Assembly: GCA_018659375.1 (NCBI GenBank)
Contig: JABJMO010000031.1
Span: forward strand, 1-39,232
Direction of reading: 5' to 3'
DNA length: 39,232 bases
Source: Methanobacteriota archaeon
Lineage (GTDB): Archaea > Thermoplasmatota > Poseidoniia > Poseidoniales > Poseidoniaceae
The notes under the pieces are model-generated. The model was not told where the DNA came from. It was given only the letters and a program-made list of their open reading frames with translations, and ran no database searches. Made by a program: the position numbers and the translations under genes. This document shows, piece after piece, positions 30,925 to 39,232 of the stretch. The stretch's first letter is position 1. Every line of letters starts with the position of its first letter.

Positions 30925-30995
30925 GTTGATAGTGAGCGTTACCCCCTAGGCAACTGTTGATAAGCGGTCGTCATTGTTCGTAGGTAGTGGGAAGG

Positions 30996-33900
30996 ATGTC
31001 GGACACTGTAACCACAAAGGCCGACAATAATCCCCTTGAAGGGATTGACCTTGCAAGATTAGAACTTGAAATGGAAAACTATCAACAATGGATGGATGAG
31101 AGGGCTGAAGATGCTTACAGGATTGCTGAAAAAGCGCGCGCTAAAAATCTAGATCACAAGCCATTTGTTGAAATCCCTAGAGCCGCAGACCTAGCGGGCA
31201 GAACTGAAAAGTTGCTTGTTGAATATCTTGGTGAATATGAAGTCGCGCAAGATATTCGCAACATGCTAGAAAAGTACGACAGGGAAACAACGTCAATGCT
31301 AATGGCGCAATCAGTAGCTAGAGGTTTTAGGGATGAGGGGTATGACCTTGTCACTGCTATAGATGTGGGCCTTAGAGTTGGGCTCGCAATTCTAACTGAA
31401 GCGGTTCTTGTAGCACCTCTTGAAGGGATTAGTGAAGTGAGATTACTCAACAACTTGGACGGCTCGCAATTCGTATCTGTTCATTTCGCTGGGCCTATTA
31501 GAGCCGCTGGTGGAACTGCGCAGGCTTTGGCTGTACTAATTGCTGACATGATCAGAATCGAGCTTAATGTTGGCAGATACCAACCGACAGATCCAGAAGT
31601 GGAACGGGTCAAGGAGGAATTCGGACTTTATCGAGGGAATCTGCAATATCGGCCAAGCCCCGAAGAAATTGACGAAATTGTTAGAGCATGTCCTGTCATG
31701 ATAAATGGCGAATCCACGGAAAAAATCCAATGTTCTGGTTACGGTAATGTAAGAAATATTGACGAGGCTAGAATTCGAGGAGGAGTGTTGTTAGTTATTG
31801 GTGAAGGGATGTGCTTGAAAGCTCCAAAAATCCGCAAACATACTGAGCGGATGAAAATTGCCGGTTGGGATTTCATCAGTAAATTTGCTGAGAAAGATAA
31901 GCCCCAAGAAGATGAGGATGAAAATAAATTCAAGTCTAGGCTAACCGAACCTATTACCAAGTTCATGAATGACATTATTGCTGGAAGACCGGTATTTGGC
32001 TCGCCCCAAGAACCTGGCGGATTCAGATTACGATATGGAAGAGCCCGCCCTTCGGGCTTGGCTGCTGCCTCGGTAAACCCTGCGTGTATGTTGGCAATGG
32101 ATGATTTTATCACAATTGGCACTCAAATGAAAATTGAACGCCCCGGTAAAGCATGTGCTATTACTCCATCTGACCACACAGATGGGCCGTGGGTGGTACT
32201 AAACGATGGTCGTTTCACAAGATGTGATGACGTTGCTAGTTTCAAATCATTGGAAAAAGATATTGCTACTATTTGGGATAATGGTGAGATTGTTATTGGC
32301 TATGGGGAATTTATGGAGAATAACAAGAATTTGGTTCCAGCAGGATATTGTTTAGATTGGTGGGCAAGCGACTTGATTGAAGAATTGTCATCAAATGATT
32401 TAGTTGAGGTGTTTTGTGAGATAATGGAGATAACGCGCAAACAATGCCCTAGTGGCGTTCCTGGCATCACAATAGAAGAAATCGGCGATGTAGATTTAAG
32501 GTTCAAAGTAAGATTACTGTGGCACCGATTTTTAGTTACTTTGAGGCCAAACTGGCTCCAGGCTAAATCTATTGCTGAGCGATTTAAGACCTCTCTACCA
32601 CCTCCACACAATCCTTGGTTCCTAGATTTGCCAATCGAATGGATACCTCAGTTATTAAAAATCTTGAATACCGCAGTTGTTGAACAGTTTAGTGGAGATG
32701 AAATTATGTTAAATGATACTCCTAAGCCTGAGGCTAAATCATTGAGAATAAAGGGTGGAGTAGCAAACTGGAATCAAAAAGTAATGTCTGAAATGGCCCA
32801 CCCGGATATATCTCTGGAAATGATAAAAGATATTCCCGGACCCAATTTCATCTCAACAGAGACAATTTTTGACACCGATAAATCAGCTCTTTGGACACTA
32901 ATGCAACATGGAATCGTGAAGGGTTCTGCACTTATTCTTGGTCTAGCACATTACCATGATGGTGAGGACCTAGTCATCACTAGTGGCTGGTCAGCAATGA
33001 TGGAAGCATTCGGGTTTTCCATCGATGGTAATAAAGCGCTAATGACCGCGAATTCTATTGGTGTGTTTGAAGATAAGATAGCCAAGCTAAGGCGGAGTGC
33101 GGAGATCCTTGCGAAAGAAGAACTGCGCCTAGATGAATTAGAAAAAGAACGCTCTATTTACCGTATTTCTGCTGAAACTAATGCTCGACAACAGGGTAAA
33201 GGCATTGCGGAAACCGATGAAGTTGGCCGTATTGCTGCCGCAAACATACCTGATATTGGACCTGATGATGCTGCATTATATTTGTCATCACAAGTTGAAC
33301 GCGATGATTATCGTGTTGACGGGATTTTGCCAATAATTAGAAAACTGTCAAAACTAAGGTGGCATCATTCAGCTCCGGTTAGAATAGGATGCCGAATGGG
33401 CCGTCCAGAAAAATCAGCACCTAGAGTCATGAACCCGATGGCTCATACTTTATTTCCAATCGACCTCAATGGTGGCAATCAAAGATTACTAACCAATGCT
33501 GCAAGGAAAAAGGATATTCGCGTTCAGCTGGGGATTAGAACATGCACTAAATGTAACAAAAAGTCTCCAATGTTATCGTGCCATCATAGAAAATTAAACG
33601 ATTTTGGTGAGCCGATTGTTGGGGAAAAATGTGGAGGAAGAACTGAATTCAAAAGCGAATTAGCAGAAAATCGTCGTCGGAGAGGTGAAATAACCACTGT
33701 TCCTATTTCTTCAATGATTGATGATGCTATGATCACATTAGGTCTTGATAGATTACCTAAGAATGTCAAGTGTATGAAGAAAATTGCCAGTAAAAATCAA
33801 ACTCCGGAGGCTTTGGAAAAGGGTCTTTTACGTGCTAAATATGACTTGCCAGTATTTAGAGATGGCACGGTTAGATTCGATATGAGTGATGTCCCTGTTA

Positions 33901-35087
33901 CCCACTTTAAGCCAAGTGAGGTAGAGGTCTCATGGAAAAGACTGGTCAATTTAGGCTACACCCATGATTACCTAGGTGAGGAATTAATTTCAGACGATCA
34001 AATGCTTGAACTGTATCCACAAGATTTCATAGTGGCTAAAAATGCTGGAGACTATTTTGTGCGAACCACACAATTTATCGATGATTTATTGGTAAGATAT
34101 TATGACATGGAGCCGTATTATAATGTATCATCTCCAGAGGACTTAGTTGGTCATTTGATATGTGCATTAGCACCACACACCTCGGGTGGAGTATTGTCTA
34201 GGATTATTGGCTGGGCCGACTGTTCTGGGGGGTATGCTCATCCACTATTCCATGCTTCAAAAAGAAGAAACTGTGATGGGGATGAAGATGCTATAATGTT
34301 ACTAATGGATGGTTTGTTAAATTTCAGTAGAGACATTTTACCAGCTAACCGGGGCGGTCAAATGGACGCTCCTTTAGTATTGACCACTAGATTAAATCCT
34401 ACTGAAGTGGACAAAGAAGCCCTGAATGTAGATTCCGGATGGTTCTATGAACGTGACTTTTATGAAATAACTCAAGACTGCCCGCATCCGAAATCTCTCT
34501 CAAACCGTGTTGACTTTGTTGAGCGAAGATTGGGTTCAGTTGCAGCTGTCAGGGGTTATGGATACACCCATGATTGCGCATCCATTTCTGCTGGGCCAGC
34601 ATTGTCTGCTTACAAGACCTTAGACACTATGATTGACAAGATGAACGGCCAGTTAGATTTGGGCCATAGACTGCGTGCAGTCGATGTTCGGAGGGTCGCT
34701 TCAAGTGTTATTAGATCGCATTTCCTCCCTGACCTTAGAGGTAATCTCAATGCTTTTGCTAGGCAGAAAGTTCGGTGTTTAAAGTGCGCACACTCTTATC
34801 GAAGAATGCCTATTGCAGGGAAGTGTATTCAGGAAACTAAAGCAAGTAGTGCAGGCTTTGCCTCGATGGGAATAGTAAAATCTGAAGGTGATTTGTGCAA
34901 CGGCAATCTAGCACTTACTGTTTCTGAAGGGGCAGTAAGGAAATACATCAAAGTCACACTTCACGTTATGGAAAAATACGGTGTTGACACCTATACCAAA
35001 CAAAATGTTCAGTGGTTGGCCAATAGTACCGATTCATTATTCCAAAATGACCGTGCAAGGCAAATGTCGTTATCCGATTTCTTGTAA
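30996..35087 (+). CDS. polC: DNA polymerase D large (catalytic) subunit DP2
   Basis: A 1363-residue catalytic subunit of the euryarchaeal replicative polymerase PolD. Conserved blocks include GPIRAAGGTAQAL, RYGRARPSGLAAASVNPA, the active-site N-C-D-G-D-E-D-A-I with acidic metal ligands, and ILPANRGGQMDAPLVLT. Zinc-binding Cys/His sets occur at CTKCNKK...CHHR...C and CLKCAHSYRR...C...C. The very end, Q-M-S-L-S-D-F-L, fits the PCNA-interacting motif Qxx(L/I)xxF(F/L). No intein interrupts it, although this gene often carries one. A GTG at 30987 is in frame, but the ATG at 30996 directly follows GTGGGAAGG. The small subunit DP1 is not in the window. Confidence 0.97.
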   Translation: MSDTVTTKADNNPLEGIDLARLELEMENYQQWMDERAEDAYRIAEKARAKNLDHKPFVEIPRAADLAGRTEKLLVEYLGEYEVAQDIRNMLEKYDRETTSMLMAQSVARGFRDEGYDLVTAIDVGLRVGLAILTEAVLVAPLEGISEVRLLNNLDGSQFVSVHFAGPIRAAGGTAQALAVLIADMIRIELNVGRYQPTDPEVERVKEEFGLYRGNLQYRPSPEEIDEIVRACPVMINGESTEKIQCSGYGNVRNIDEARIRGGVLLVIGEGMCLKAPKIRKHTERMKIAGWDFISKFAEKDKPQEDEDENKFKSRLTEPITKFMNDIIAGRPVFGSPQEPGGFRLRYGRARPSGLAAASVNPACMLAMDDFITIGTQMKIERPGKACAITPSDHTDGPWVVLNDGRFTRCDDVASFKSLEKDIATIWDNGEIVIGYGEFMENNKNLVPAGYCLDWWASDLIEELSSNDLVEVFCEIMEITRKQCPSGVPGITIEEIGDVDLRFKVRLLWHRFLVTLRPNWLQAKSIAERFKTSLPPPHNPWFLDLPIEWIPQLLKILNTAVVEQFSGDEIMLNDTPKPEAKSLRIKGGVANWNQKVMSEMAHPDISLEMIKDIPGPNFISTETIFDTDKSALWTLMQHGIVKGSALILGLAHYHDGEDLVITSGWSAMMEAFGFSIDGNKALMTANSIGVFEDKIAKLRRSAEILAKEELRLDELEKERSIYRISAETNARQQGKGIAETDEVGRIAAANIPDIGPDDAALYLSSQVERDDYRVDGILPIIRKLSKLRWHHSAPVRIGCRMGRPEKSAPRVMNPMAHTLFPIDLNGGNQRLLTNAARKKDIRVQLGIRTCTKCNKKSPMLSCHHRKLNDFGEPIVGEKCGGRTEFKSELAENRRRRGEITTVPISSMIDDAMITLGLDRLPKNVKCMKKIASKNQTPEALEKGLLRAKYDLPVFRDGTVRFDMSDVPVTHFKPSEVEVSWKRLVNLGYTHDYLGEELISDDQMLELYPQDFIVAKNAGDYFVRTTQFIDDLLVRYYDMEPYYNVSSPEDLVGHLICALAPHTSGGVLSRIIGWADCSGGYAHPLFHASKRRNCDGDEDAIMLLMDGLLNFSRDILPANRGGQMDAPLVLTTRLNPTEVDKEALNVDSGWFYERDFYEITQDCPHPKSLSNRVDFVERRLGSVAAVRGYGYTHDCASISAGPALSAYKTLDTMIDKMNGQLDLGHRLRAVDVRRVASSVIRSHFLPDLRGNLNAFARQKVRCLKCAHSYRRMPIAGKCIQETKASSAGFASMGIVKSEGDLCNGNLALTVSEGAVRKYIKVTLHVMEKYGVDTYTKQNVQWLANSTDSLFQNDRARQMSLSDFL

Positions 35088-36680
35088 TCACTTGACTGAG
35101 GGTCCAATCATTTGCTCTGGGCGGACCCACAAATCAAATTCTTCGTTAGTCAAATATTTCAATTCTAATGCAGATTCTCTCAAAGTGAGACCTTTTTCAT
35201 GAGCGTTCTTAGCAATCTTAGCCGCTTTATCATAACCAATATGATTGTTTAAAGCGGTAACTAGCATTAGAGAATTTTCCAAATGATTAGTGATATTCTC
35301 TCTAACCGGCTCTAATCCCTCAACACAATTTTCTCGCAAGGAGCGGCAAGCGTCGGTTAGTAATTTTGTTGAATGGAGTAAATTGTGAATCATCATTGGT
35401 TTGTATACATTTAATTCAAAATTACCTTGTGAGCCTCCTACTGTTATGGCAGTATGGTTACCCATCACTTGGCAACATACCATTGTCATCGCTTCTACTT
35501 GAGTTGGATTTACTTTACCTGGCATTATTGACGAGCCCGGTTCGTTTGCTGGCAATGCTAGTTCCCCAAATCCACACCTTGGTCCCGAGCCGAGCCATCT
35601 AATGTCATTGGCTATTTTCATCAAACTTACAGCCAAGGTGTTTAGTGCACCACTAGCCGCAACTATCGCATCATGAGCGGCTAGTTGAGCAAACTTGTTT
35701 TCGGCACTGACAAACATTAATCCGGTGATGTTAGAAATCTCATCAGATACCATTTGGGCAAATAGTGGATGCGTATTCAGACCAGTTCCAACAGCAGTGC
35801 CCCCTAATGCTAATTCAAATAAATCATCTAAGGCAAAATCTAGACGGCGAAGGTCTGCATCAAGTTGTGCTACCCAGCCAGAAGCTTCCTGTCCAAGGGT
35901 CAGGGGAACTGCATCCATCAAGTGAGTGCGGCCTATTTTGACAATGCTTTCCCATTGTTTTGCCTTGTCATTTAAAGCATTTCTCAAAGCCCTAACACTA
36001 GGTAGTAGGTCGTGAACAAAAGCTTCTGCAGAAGCTATGTGCATAGCAGTTGGAAAGGTATCATTGGAAGACTGGGCTCGGTTAACGTGGTCATTGGGGT
36101 GGACTGGGTGTTTAGAGCCCAATTCACCGCCAGCAATTTCAATGGCTCTATTGGCAATTACTTCGTTGGAATTCATATTACTTTGAGTACCACTACCTGT
36201 TTGCCAAATTCGCAGTGGGAAATGATCATCTAATTCTCCATCAATAACCTCTTGACAGGCTTGAATTATTAATTCACCAACTTTGGCGTCTATTTGCTGC
36301 AATGAAACGTTAGTCTTAGCCGCTGCTTGCTTTAGAATGCCAAAGGACCGTATTACGCCTCTAGGCATTTTATCATCTCCGATGTCGAAATTTATCAATG
36401 ATCGAGCAGTTTGACAGCCATAATATCGGTCTGATGGAACTTCTAGGTCCCCCATCGTATCACTTTCAACTCTAACTCCCCCAATTGGTTTTGCTTTGGG
36501 TCTTGAGGCTCGCTCGATCTTCCCTAACTGTTGGGGCGAAAGTGCGGCCTCAATCATCTTTGTAATGGTGGCACTACGCCCTGATTTTCCCTTGCCGACA
36601 CTTCGGTCTAATCTTGAGGCTAAGTCTTCAGGTAAGCTAATGCTAATTATTCTACGGTCTCCGACGCGATGTTTAGACAT
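35088..36680 (-). CDS. fumC: Class II fumarate hydratase with N-terminal ribbon-helix-helix domain
   Basis: A 530-residue fusion. Residues 9-48 ([17 protein letters not shown], then [13 protein letters not shown]) have the beta strand-helix-helix pattern of CopG/NikR DNA-binding domains. After a basic linker (about 49-70) comes a full class II fumarase: [45 protein letters not shown], and the signature [11 protein letters not shown] with S383. The fumarase part is complete (about 460 residues), so the N-terminal part is extra. No start codon with a ribosome binding site was seen at the domain border. It hydrates fumarate to malate in the TCA cycle, and the extra domain may bind DNA. A perfect palindrome lies 10 bases upstream of the ATG. 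It is convergent with polC, with stops adjacent. Confidence 0.93.
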
Positions 36681-36689
36681 AGTCTAGCC

Positions 36690-36707
36690 TTAATAATTAA
36701 TTATTAA
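36690..36707. promoter_or_regulatory. Perfect 18-base palindrome before the fumarase gene (candidate operator)
   Basis: TTAATAATTAATTATTAA is a perfect palindrome that ends 10 bases before the fumarase ATG. It lies at or near the expected transcription start given the TATA-like element at 36721-36730. Ribbon-helix-helix dimers bind short inverted repeats, so the protein it precedes is the obvious candidate ligand. AT-only palindromes also arise by chance in AT-rich promoters, hence the moderate score. Confidence 0.45.
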
Positions 36708-36720
36708 ATAATATCTATTG

Positions 36721-37281: not shown

Positions 37282-39232
37282 TCACTGCTTTAGCCAAGGT
37301 CGGAAATGTTGGTCTGCATATGCTCTTGCATAGTCTGCAGGATAACCTGCTGCGATTAATTGTTGCTCGTATGCTAGTTGCTCTGGCGTAATTGACGTGT
37401 CAGGTGCCGGCATACCCGCTACTGCAGCGAATCCAGCATCGGAATATGCCTTCTCCTGTACCGACCAAGCATCATTCTTAGCGCCTCTTCCCCTAACAAA
37501 GAATGCCGTAACTAGGAGTAATACTATCACTGCACCAATTATTCCAACGAGTGAATAAGACATGCCAAATATACCTGATTCGGATTCGGCCTCATCTGTC
37601 GAATCTGTAGTATCATCGCCTAAGTCCGTATCGTCCCCAGGTTCAGTTGGGTCAACTGGGTCAACTGGGTCAACTGGGTCAGTTGGGTCTGTTGTGTTGT
37701 CGTCCGGTTCATTTGGCTCATCAGGCAATTCACAACCATCGGAGCCGACGATTGTCCCCAGTGGAGTTTCAGGGCAGATATCGTTCTCGTTAAGAACACC
37801 GTCTGAATCTAAATCTAGAATTGGACAACCAACTCCATCATCTCCCGAGAAGACTCCGGCTACATCTGGACATTGGTCTCCATTGGTACCATCTGGGTTA
37901 TCACCAAATCCATCGCCATCGGTATCGTACCACTGGGACATATCATTTGGCAGGATATCGTTATCATTGGAAACTCCATCACTATCAAGATCTGGACAGC
38001 CAAATCTGTCGACCGTTGAGGTACCAGGATTATTAGGACAATCGTCGATTATTCCGTCTCCAGCATCGGTTGAATTGAAACCATCTTTGTCTACATCATT
38101 GGCCCATAATTCATCTTCATTTTGAACATAAAATGGTTCAGAAAAGTGAACGTTGTTGGATTCATTGGCTTCAGTGACATCATTATTACTGTCAATAATT
38201 AGTTTACAGCGGTAATCCCCTGATGGCGTATCTGTTGGAATAGTAAAGAATGCATAACTATCTTGTACACTAGATTGCTCATATGACATTGCGTTAGTTG
38301 TACTTGGGTTTTCAGATTCGACTTCAGAAGAATACATTGTGTTGAGTGTTACGTTATCTGAATCAACCAGCTCAATTAGAACAACCATGCTTTGCCCAAA
38401 TGCTGGACCTCTAGCATTGTGAATTATCCATTGAGTAGTTACCTCTTCATCGGTAAATACTTCAGTAATTGGGCAAGATAGTGATTCTGGAATCAGGTCT
38501 GGCAATGCCGGGTTAACGACTATCAGCTCAACATCATAATCGCCTTGGCCACCGTTAGAGTCGACCGTCAGCGTGTAAGTTGTTGTTTGACCTTCATAGG
38601 TTTCATTATCCATCGACTCAAAGACCAATCCATAACTCATGTTGTCTACTGATGCCACTAAATCGCCAGCACTGTTGGTTAGCGTAGCAGTAAATGGTGC
38701 AGACGTGGAAGCATTGAATCTAACTTCTGTGTTGTAGTAATCGTCAATTGTGAAACTGTATACATCTTCAGTATCTGAATTACTCAAGCAACCTGTACCA
38801 CTAATTGGGTTATTTGTCCCAAGTGGAATCCCCGATGAGCTTGCATCTTGGCCTAAGCCAAGGTCGTTTTGATTACCACAGGTAAACGGCGGGACATATG
38901 TTGATTGGTCTGGCTCACCGATGAGTAATCGATAGGTTCCACCAGGATTGCTGGAGCCAAAGCCGCCCCAATAAGTGACATTGATGTAATAGTCTCCTGC
39001 GGTATTTTCGTAATCAGTGCCTTCTAGAGTGACGAAATCGTCATTTATCGAAAGGCTTGTGTCAATTGATGTGCCATTAGGTAAGTCGAGGCTAAGGTCG
39101 AAGTCTGCACCGTCAATTGGCGCAGTAACTAAAGTGACTTCAAGAGGTTGGTTAGGAGTAATTGTCACTTTGTAAAGATCGGCTTCATCCGTTGAATCAA
39201 CACAACCTCTTACTTCTAATTCCGGGTCCGCC
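37282..39232 (-). CDS. Large cell-surface protein with CARDB and thrombospondin-type-3 repeats, N-terminus beyond window
   Basis: The frame is open to the right edge, so the N-terminus and any signal peptide are missing; about 650 residues are visible. Starting at the edge there are two beta-rich segments of the pre-peptidase C-terminal (PPC) type. A CARDB-like domain follows (LPDLIPESLSCP ... GDYRCKLIIDSNNDVTEANESNN). Next come at least three calcium-binding thrombospondin-3-like repeats (DKDGFNSTDAGDG, DLDSDGVSNDND, DTDGDGFGD, DLDSDGVLNEND) and an Asp/Pro/Thr/Glu-rich spacer. One membrane helix (GMSYSLVGIIGAVIVLLLVTAFFV) and a cytoplasmic tail of about 75 residues close the protein. The tail ends YEQQLIAAGYPADYARAYADQHF, a helical UBA-like look. 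It is probably an adhesive or substrate-binding surface protein. Confidence 0.85.
   Translation of the reverse strand, partial: ADPELEVRGCVDSTDEADLYKVTITPNQPLEVTLVTAPIDGADFDLSLDLPNGTSIDTSLSINDDFVTLEGTDYENTAGDYYINVTYWGGFGSSNPGGTYRLLIGEPDQSTYVPPFTCGNQNDLGLGQDASSSGIPLGTNNPISGTGCLSNSDTEDVYSFTIDDYYNTEVRFNASTSAPFTATLTNSAGDLVASVDNMSYGLVFESMDNETYEGQTTTYTLTVDSNGGQGDYDVELIVVNPALPDLIPESLSCPITEVFTDEEVTTQWIIHNARGPAFGQSMVVLIELVDSDNVTLNTMYSSEVESENPSTTNAMSYEQSSVQDSYAFFTIPTDTPSGDYRCKLIIDSNNDVTEANESNNVHFSEPFYVQNEDELWANDVDKDGFNSTDAGDGIIDDCPNNPGTSTVDRFGCPDLDSDGVSNDNDILPNDMSQWYDTDGDGFGDNPDGTNGDQCPDVAGVFSGDDGVGCPILDLDSDGVLNENDICPETPLGTIVGSDGCELPDEPNEPDDNTTDPTDPVDPVDPVDPTEPGDDTDLGDDTTDSTDEAESESGIFGMSYSLVGIIGAVIVLLLVTAFFVRGRGAKNDAWSVQEKAYSDAGFAAVAGMPAPDTSITPEQLAYEQQLIAAGYPADYARAYADQHFRPWLKQ
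37647..37691 (-). repeat. 9-base tandem repeat coding for Asp-Pro-Val/Thr
   Basis: Five units of (C/T)TGGGTCA(A/G), nearly identical in the middle, code on the minus strand for a D-P-V/D-P-T spacer of the surface protein just outside the membrane. Such a repeat may change length by slippage between strains. Confidence 0.85.

Follow-up and report, generated by a model that had tools for sequence, protein, structure and literature searches.

A fumarase with an N-terminal ribbon-helix-helix domain in marine archaea: a candidate autogenous repressor with a conserved palindromic site at its own promoter

Background

Fusions of enzymes with repressors are few, and PutA is the textbook case in which the DNA-binding part is a ribbon-helix-helix (RHH) domain. 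Trifunctional PutA is described as a metabolic enzyme with an N-terminal RHH domain that acts as an autogenous repressor (PMC5293562), and in BzdR-type regulators an enzyme-like domain is joined to a DNA-binding domain (PMC3602430). Here we analyze a gene in which an RHH domain precedes a complete class II fumarase; it lies in a stretch of 39,232 nucleotides (contig JABJMO010000031.1 of assembly GCA_018659375.1, hereafter the window) of an uncultured archaeon of the Poseidoniaceae. An earlier note, made from the letters of the window, had suggested that such a protein could work as a repressor. Our analysis indicates that the protein is probably a bifunctional class II fumarase that represses its own gene, in a way of working similar to that of PutA. 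Literature searches among the open-licence papers of PubMed Central (PMC) turned up no account of an RHH-fumarase, and the string "euryarchae" is absent from the available text of the paper on marine FumF (PMC3002918).

Results

An RHH domain joined to a complete fumarase

The gene is encoded on the minus strand, which the earlier note had left unstated, where a single open frame, as that note had claimed, runs from an ATG at 36680 to a stop codon at 35088-35090 and encodes 530 amino acids; the plus strand over 35088-36680 is full of stops. Residues 69-526 match TIGR00979 (fumC_II of NCBIfam) from position 1 to 458 of the 458 positions of the model, with 760.9 bits against a cut-off of 664.75, so that the equivalog cut-off is passed over the full length. 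Moreover, the Lyase_1 (PF00206) and FumaraseC_C (PF10415) families of Pfam are matched, and the 27 PDB sequences found at E<=1e-150 are all named fumarase or fumarate hydratase. The aspartate ammonia-lyase subfamily model PRK12273 is also above its cut-off (532.3 vs 510), far below the fumarase score. The protein contains a GSSIMPGK stretch, which we take to be the class II fumarase signature. Together with the RHH_1 match described below, the TIGR00979 and PDB matches bear out the presence of both parts in one protein. A class I fumarase was considered as a second enzyme and rejected, as profile searches of the same genome (~91% complete) with PF05681 and PF05683 were empty; since none was found, the fusion appears to be the only fumarase of this genome. 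An assembly error is an unlikely source of the fusion because it recurs on many independent contigs, some of which bear AG- or AH- isolate names and look like single-cell genomes.

For comparison, 120 loci were collected from the same order by combining top matches with a hand-picked spread, so that the sample is not unbiased. After 7 duplicates were dropped, 113 Candidatus Poseidoniales fumarase loci were classed: an RHH domain is joined to the fumarase in 86 (fused) and absent from 25 (unfused), and in 2 the N-terminus is partly masked. The family of the window (f1) holds 37 fused and 25 unfused loci, and its sister family (f2) is fused in 49 of 49 classed loci.

The Pfam family RHH_1 matches the isolated N-terminus over residues 12-44 (E 9.3e-4, 19.5-19.7 bits, gathering score 20.5), and in the whole protein it scores 15.3 bits (E 0.019). 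When the N-termini of the window protein and 55 relatives were searched, 50 of the 56 matched RHH_1 (E<=0.01), the sole family listed; 3 of 10 relatives tested exceed the gathering score. A search of the same genome with RHH_1 at E<=0.001 found another locus and missed the fusion. NCBIfam gives weak matches to TraY and NikR (E 0.01-0.24), and the N-terminus aligns in register with NikR at a weak E of 0.87.

The conservation of this region is clear. In 12 genes of the same genus the ratio of non-synonymous to synonymous differences (pN/pS) is 0.178 for the RHH domain, 0.115 for the preceding arm (residues 2-8), 0.685 for the linker (residues 47-69) and 0.083 for the fumarase. The RHH domain is therefore under purifying selection and the linker, whose length is ~17-30 residues in relatives, is not; because the domain is conserved, a chance match to RHH_1 is unlikely. 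In the 86 fused proteins R10, I11, S15, P17, G34 and S36 reach 100% conservation after rounding and without counting gaps, and position 13 holds either S or T; judging from the alignment to RHH repressors and from the geometry of such repressors, I11, S13 and S15 would face the DNA.

A monomer model of the full protein has a mean predicted local distance difference test score (pLDDT) of 65, mostly below 50 in the N-terminus, and a model of the N-terminus by itself has a mean pLDDT of 69 and a predicted template modelling score of 0.29. With regard to disorder, confidence over the N-terminus is thus low in both of these weak models. The second places helices at residues 18-28 and 35-47 after an extended stretch, an arrangement that, at low confidence, agrees with what an RHH fold requires.

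A palindromic element directly before the start codon

In the window, a 26-base element, GATATTATTTAATAATTAATTATTAA, lies directly before the fusion gene and contains a perfect 18-bp palindrome, TTAATAATTAATTATTAA, which 100 shuffles of the window did not match with up to 2 mismatches. The AT content of the 45 bases before the fumarase start is 82%, vs 48-66% at 19 other starts. With up to 3 mismatches, a 22-base core of the element occurs once in the 1.9-Mb genome, and the 26-mer gave 14 hits in 13 of 35 genomes of the same genus, each directly before a fused fumarase (genome G020 has two hits within one promoter). These are all 13 of the genomes with a fused fumarase start, and the 26-mer was found nowhere else in them; it is absent at the same tolerance from the 16 genomes with an unfused start, and the other 6 of the 35 lack a covered fumarase start. 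The reversed 26-mer, used as a control, had no hits in the 35 genomes. In nine genomes of the genus the fumarase promoter has 22 consecutive invariant bases, vs at most 6 in a control taken from the same genomes, the region that separates a phosphoribosyltransferase gene from its divergent neighbour.

The start codon falls exactly 9 bases past the element in 12 of 12 genes of the genus; this fixed distance and the selection on the RHH domain back translation from the RHH start rather than from the fumarase domain. In five fused loci (L010, L011, L039, L104, L108) extra copies of the palindrome are found upstream; such copies are to be expected if the site is an operator. The palindrome excess vs shuffles is 0-0.045 in the 12 loci of the genus; as a general claim it was dropped, being not significant in many loci beyond these.

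The element in fused and unfused promoters of two families

Family f2 has a related site at the same promoter: the motif TTTATTAATAASTAATTAA, searched with up to 2 mismatches in 24 f2 genomes, gave 17 hits in 16 of them, all directly before the fusion (two hits in genome G037 overlap on opposite strands). A scoring matrix trained on f2 promoters alone was then applied to f1, where the 25 unfused promoters all score at or below -8.8 and 36 fused promoters range from -6.3 to 28.8 (locus L050 was left out because of a contig end). At a threshold of 12, picked after the scores were seen, 60 of the 81 fused promoters have the element and the 25 unfused ones all lack it; 5 of the 86 fused loci were set aside for a short gene, a short upstream region or Ns. 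TATA-like strings follow the same division (76/81 fused, 0/25 unfused, the latter over 60 bases).

That the conserved site stands only at the gene's own promoter, in the genomes that were searched with these patterns, also speaks against a fumarase tethered to DNA for a role in repair, a very improbable explanation that draws on a report of bacterial fumarase and malate as components of the DNA damage response (PMC5711358).

The unfused genes have elements of their own. In the genus of the window (L013-L023, L025, L027, L117, L119, L120) another conserved leader element, CGAACKGTGAAGAAGTWC, precedes the presumed start by ~15-40 bases; a search that allowed up to 2 mismatches placed it at the fumarase of 12 of 12 genomes, and its 6 occurrences elsewhere all have 2 mismatches. 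Regulation in these unfused fumarases thus seems to have been replaced and not merely lost. The members of a second RHH-less group (L112-L116) share a leader of their own (CCTTTGACG ... AGGGAAAGGGACATGGAC or similar), which differs from the leader in the genus of the window. Single-sequence folds of 60-base unfused leaders showed no shared RNA structure by eye. Locus L111 (genome G097) has a strongly diverged RHH-like N-terminus (MSSKGRPKTHDARIVSVSFP...) and its promoter keeps TTTATTAATAATGAATAAT; in the tree it adjoins RHH-less relatives without TTTATTAATAATGAATAAT.

Another N-terminal domain and another upstream site in a sister order

Within the same class, the fumarase match in 18 of 21 genomes of another order (f3), presumably Marine Group III, includes a different N-terminal extension of ~95 residues (YTSIRVTKEV or similar). 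Loci L252-L269 share in this extension a conserved EGHVRFPKYG stretch. No convincing family match and no RHH was found for it in Pfam, NCBIfam, PHROGs, PADLOC or PDB sequences, and hhalign gave no link to RHH; its strand-helix-helix look is by eye only, and it was not counted as an RHH homologue.

A double-dyad site, different from that of the Poseidoniales, is found at 18 of 18 f3 fumarase loci: it consists of GTATGCAnnnTGCATA followed by its mirror image, beside a TATA-like TTTTTAATA or similar. This 34-bp site starts at -65 or -64 in 17 of 17 loci; L265, the eighteenth, was not caught by the extension motif used. Among the 269 loci examined, GTATGCAnnnTGyATA occurs in 21, all of them f3 fumarase loci (18 places, three counted twice), and in none of the 248 others. 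In addition, 17 f3 loci with 55,248 bases in all contain 35 half-sites (GTATGCA/TGCATAC), of which 34 lie within -90..-20.

Two fumarase lineages therefore carry different N-terminal domains, each with its own conserved dyad at the same promoter, and no other observation argues as strongly that the upstream DNA is read by the N-terminal domain. The two sites may also pair with different residues: the f3 site, which contains G and C, with the arginine of S8, R10 and T12 in the presumed strand of the extension, and the core made up of A and T alone with the Ile-Ser-Ser of the RHH domain.

Distribution and probable loss of the fusion

A search with the N-terminus gave 233 confirmed places, of which the best 80 were analyzed; these 80 are Poseidoniales, Poseidoniaceae, Thalassarchaeaceae, Marine Group II, Euryarchaeota or Thermoplasmata records, and the nearest relative among them, from a Candidatus Poseidoniaceae, is 96% identical. 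No RHH was seen by eye in 12 N-termini inspected from 30 genomes outside the class with a listed fumarase match; one of these outside genomes, G230, was rejected as fused because its alignment crosses an in-frame stop and shows no RHH. A plasmid search gave 76 records; the five of these that were inspected match from residue 21 or 45 onward, and four of the five are annotated as aspartate ammonia-lyase.

An unrooted tree of 109 fumarase domains requires 4 changes of the RHH label, 3 of them forced by starred branches for the unfused group. We read the unfused state in f1 as losses of the RHH domain, because all classed f2 loci and the early f1 branches are fused. Of 30 loci with flanks of 1.5 kb, both fused and unfused, 29 have a cyclophilin motif upstream, indicating that both kinds of gene occupy the same genomic place. 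The f1 fumarases nest within f2 beside genus g5 (SH-aLRT 98), through a possible inter-family transfer or a misplaced midpoint root. Two genome bins hold two fumarase copies each, L051 and L119 in G113 and L120 and L121 in G125; the distance between L119 and L016, a locus of another genome, is near zero, which may mean that one copy was binned wrongly. A few unfused copies (G113, G125) may accordingly belong to mixed bins.

Coordinates and neighbouring genes

The features of the locus are collected in Table 1. A convergent gene of 1366 amino acids (30987-35087, plus strand), by eye presumably the large subunit of the archaeal DNA polymerase D, ends at 35087 and so abuts the fumarase stop at 35088. 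On the other side, a long protein is predicted from 37282-39231 (minus strand); it has acidic repeats of the DxDxDG type and, close to its C-terminus, a hydrophobic segment, and Pfam gave no hit for it at 1e-5.

Table 1. Features of the RHH-fumarase locus in the window
Feature	Position	Strand	Basis
RHH-fumarase fusion gene, 530 aa, including stop codon	35088..36680	-	ORF, Pfam, NCBIfam
Class II fumarase, residues 70-528	35097..36473	-	TIGR00979, PF00206, PF10415, PDB fumarases
Variable, unconserved linker, residues 48-69	36474..36539	-	pN/pS; length in relatives
Ribbon-helix-helix domain, residues 9-47	36540..36656	-	RHH_1 match, pN/pS, low-confidence model helices
Conserved basic arm before the strand, residues 1-8 (M-A/S-K-H-R-A/V-G-D)	36657..36680	-	conservation in 86 fused proteins
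Operator-like element GATATTATTTAATAATTAATTATTAA, 9 bases upstream of the ATG, presumed overlap with TATA-like box	36690..36715	-	
Perfect 18-bp palindrome TTAATAATTAATTATTAA within GATATTATTTAATAATTAATTATTAA	36690..36707	.	shuffle test

Discussion

What was found is a predicted DNA-binding domain on an enzyme together with a dedicated site at its own promoter, as architecture and co-occurrence. The suggestion of the earlier note that the protein could be a repressor is strengthened indirectly: the conserved palindromic site stands before the protein's own gene, is absent where the RHH domain is absent, and is different where another N-terminal domain is present, all of which is consistent with autogenous control.

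Several observations weigh against this reading. Concerning the domain, the earlier note had pointed out a CopG/NikR-like RHH pattern, and the profile search does return RHH_1, but weakly and in the window protein below the Pfam gathering score; the structure models are weak, and a Foldseek search gave no RHH match. Concerning the site, in many f2 loci the palindrome does not exceed shuffles significantly, the reversed TTTATTAATAASTAATTAA control hits 3 of the 24 f2 genomes, and TTTATTAATAASTAATTAA itself is missing in 8 of them, 5 of which are fused with the start covered (G035, G042, G043, G054, G057). Moreover, 21 of the 81 fused promoters, mostly in genera g5, g7, g12 and g18 and part of g11, have no recognisable element and an RHH domain with the same presumed contact residues, so that either the operator has drifted or the element is not what the RHH domain reads. 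The phylogenetic pairing test is too small to carry weight: in none of its 3 starred pairs did the site go against the domain (p 0.25). Finally, unfused promoters differ in their general make-up and, as they lack a TATA-like string in their 60 bases, the whole promoter may have changed.

These element-less promoters, and the TATA-like strings within the element in most fused promoters, are also what an explanation quite unlikely in our judgement would build on, namely that the element does no more than form a strong core promoter (TATA/BRE, start region), or that another regulator binds it, and that the RHH domain is an assembly module or has some other role; the DNA role of the domain is itself a prediction. 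However, the 22-26 conserved bases with their dyad exceed both a core promoter and the control region, the element is unique in the genome searched and is missing where the RHH domain is missing, and in the sister order another domain is accompanied by another dyad.

If the fumarase is indeed an autogenous repressor, its mechanism can be sketched. Class II fumarases are tetramers. The RHH domains of two subunits would pair into one RHH dimer, and the tetramer could thus, in line with the two dimers suggested by the earlier note, place up to two such dimers on a palindromic or double-dyad site. We infer that the TATA-like box, ~30 bases before the start codon, overlaps with this site or lies against it, so that bound fumarase would block the assembly of the transcription machinery; DNA binding, repression, the overlap with the TATA-like box and the arrangement of the dimers are all predicted here from sequence. 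The resulting negative feedback would hold the level of fumarase.

What the circuit would respond to can be read in two ways. We favour plain feedback by the amount of enzyme, because the linker is not conserved, and we place second a metabolite-gated repressor, in the sense of the metabolite sensing proposed in the earlier note, in which fumarate, malate or the occupancy of the active site would alter the geometry or oligomeric state of the RHH domains and release the operator. Such gating draws on the same site evidence and is, in our view, unlikely: a linker that is unconserved and variable in length argues against tight coupling, and even in PutA the reduction by proline is described as shifting DNA affinity only ~2-fold (PMC5293562).

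If autogenous repression is true, an enzyme acting back directly on the transcription of its own gene would set central carbon flux in these uncultured archaea, in a fusion that is kept across much of an archaeal group abundant in the surface ocean. In a wider sense, the chances are about even that in the whole marine archaeal class the fumarase doubles as its own repressor, in a modular, evolving circuit where domain and operator are lost together and one pair stands in place of another between orders, always on this enzyme of the tricarboxylic acid cycle. The locus offers a concrete protein-DNA pair that is testable in vitro without culture, with the natural losses and the difference in domains as controls.

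Among known systems, the likeness to PutA lies in an N-terminal RHH domain on a metabolic enzyme. The enzyme is unrelated, being a proline/P5C dehydrogenase in PutA and a fumarase in the window, which is hence not a PutA; moreover, PutA senses proline and binds membranes, and its role as a repressor is proven, whereas that of the RHH-fumarase is proposed from sequence comparison. The enzyme domain is the same complete one as in FumC, but ordinary FumC begins near the E-x-D-x-M-G motif and here ~69 residues with the RHH domain precede it. With the CopG/NikR repressors the protein shares the strand-helix-helix pattern, in register with NikR at a weak score; their effector part is a nickel-binding domain or none, whereas here it would be a fumarase tetramer, and the presumed DNA-facing residues, assigned by alignment, are here Ile-Ser-Ser. 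In BzdR-type regulators, lastly, an enzyme has been turned into a regulator, whereas in the RHH-fumarase the complete enzyme appears to have been kept.
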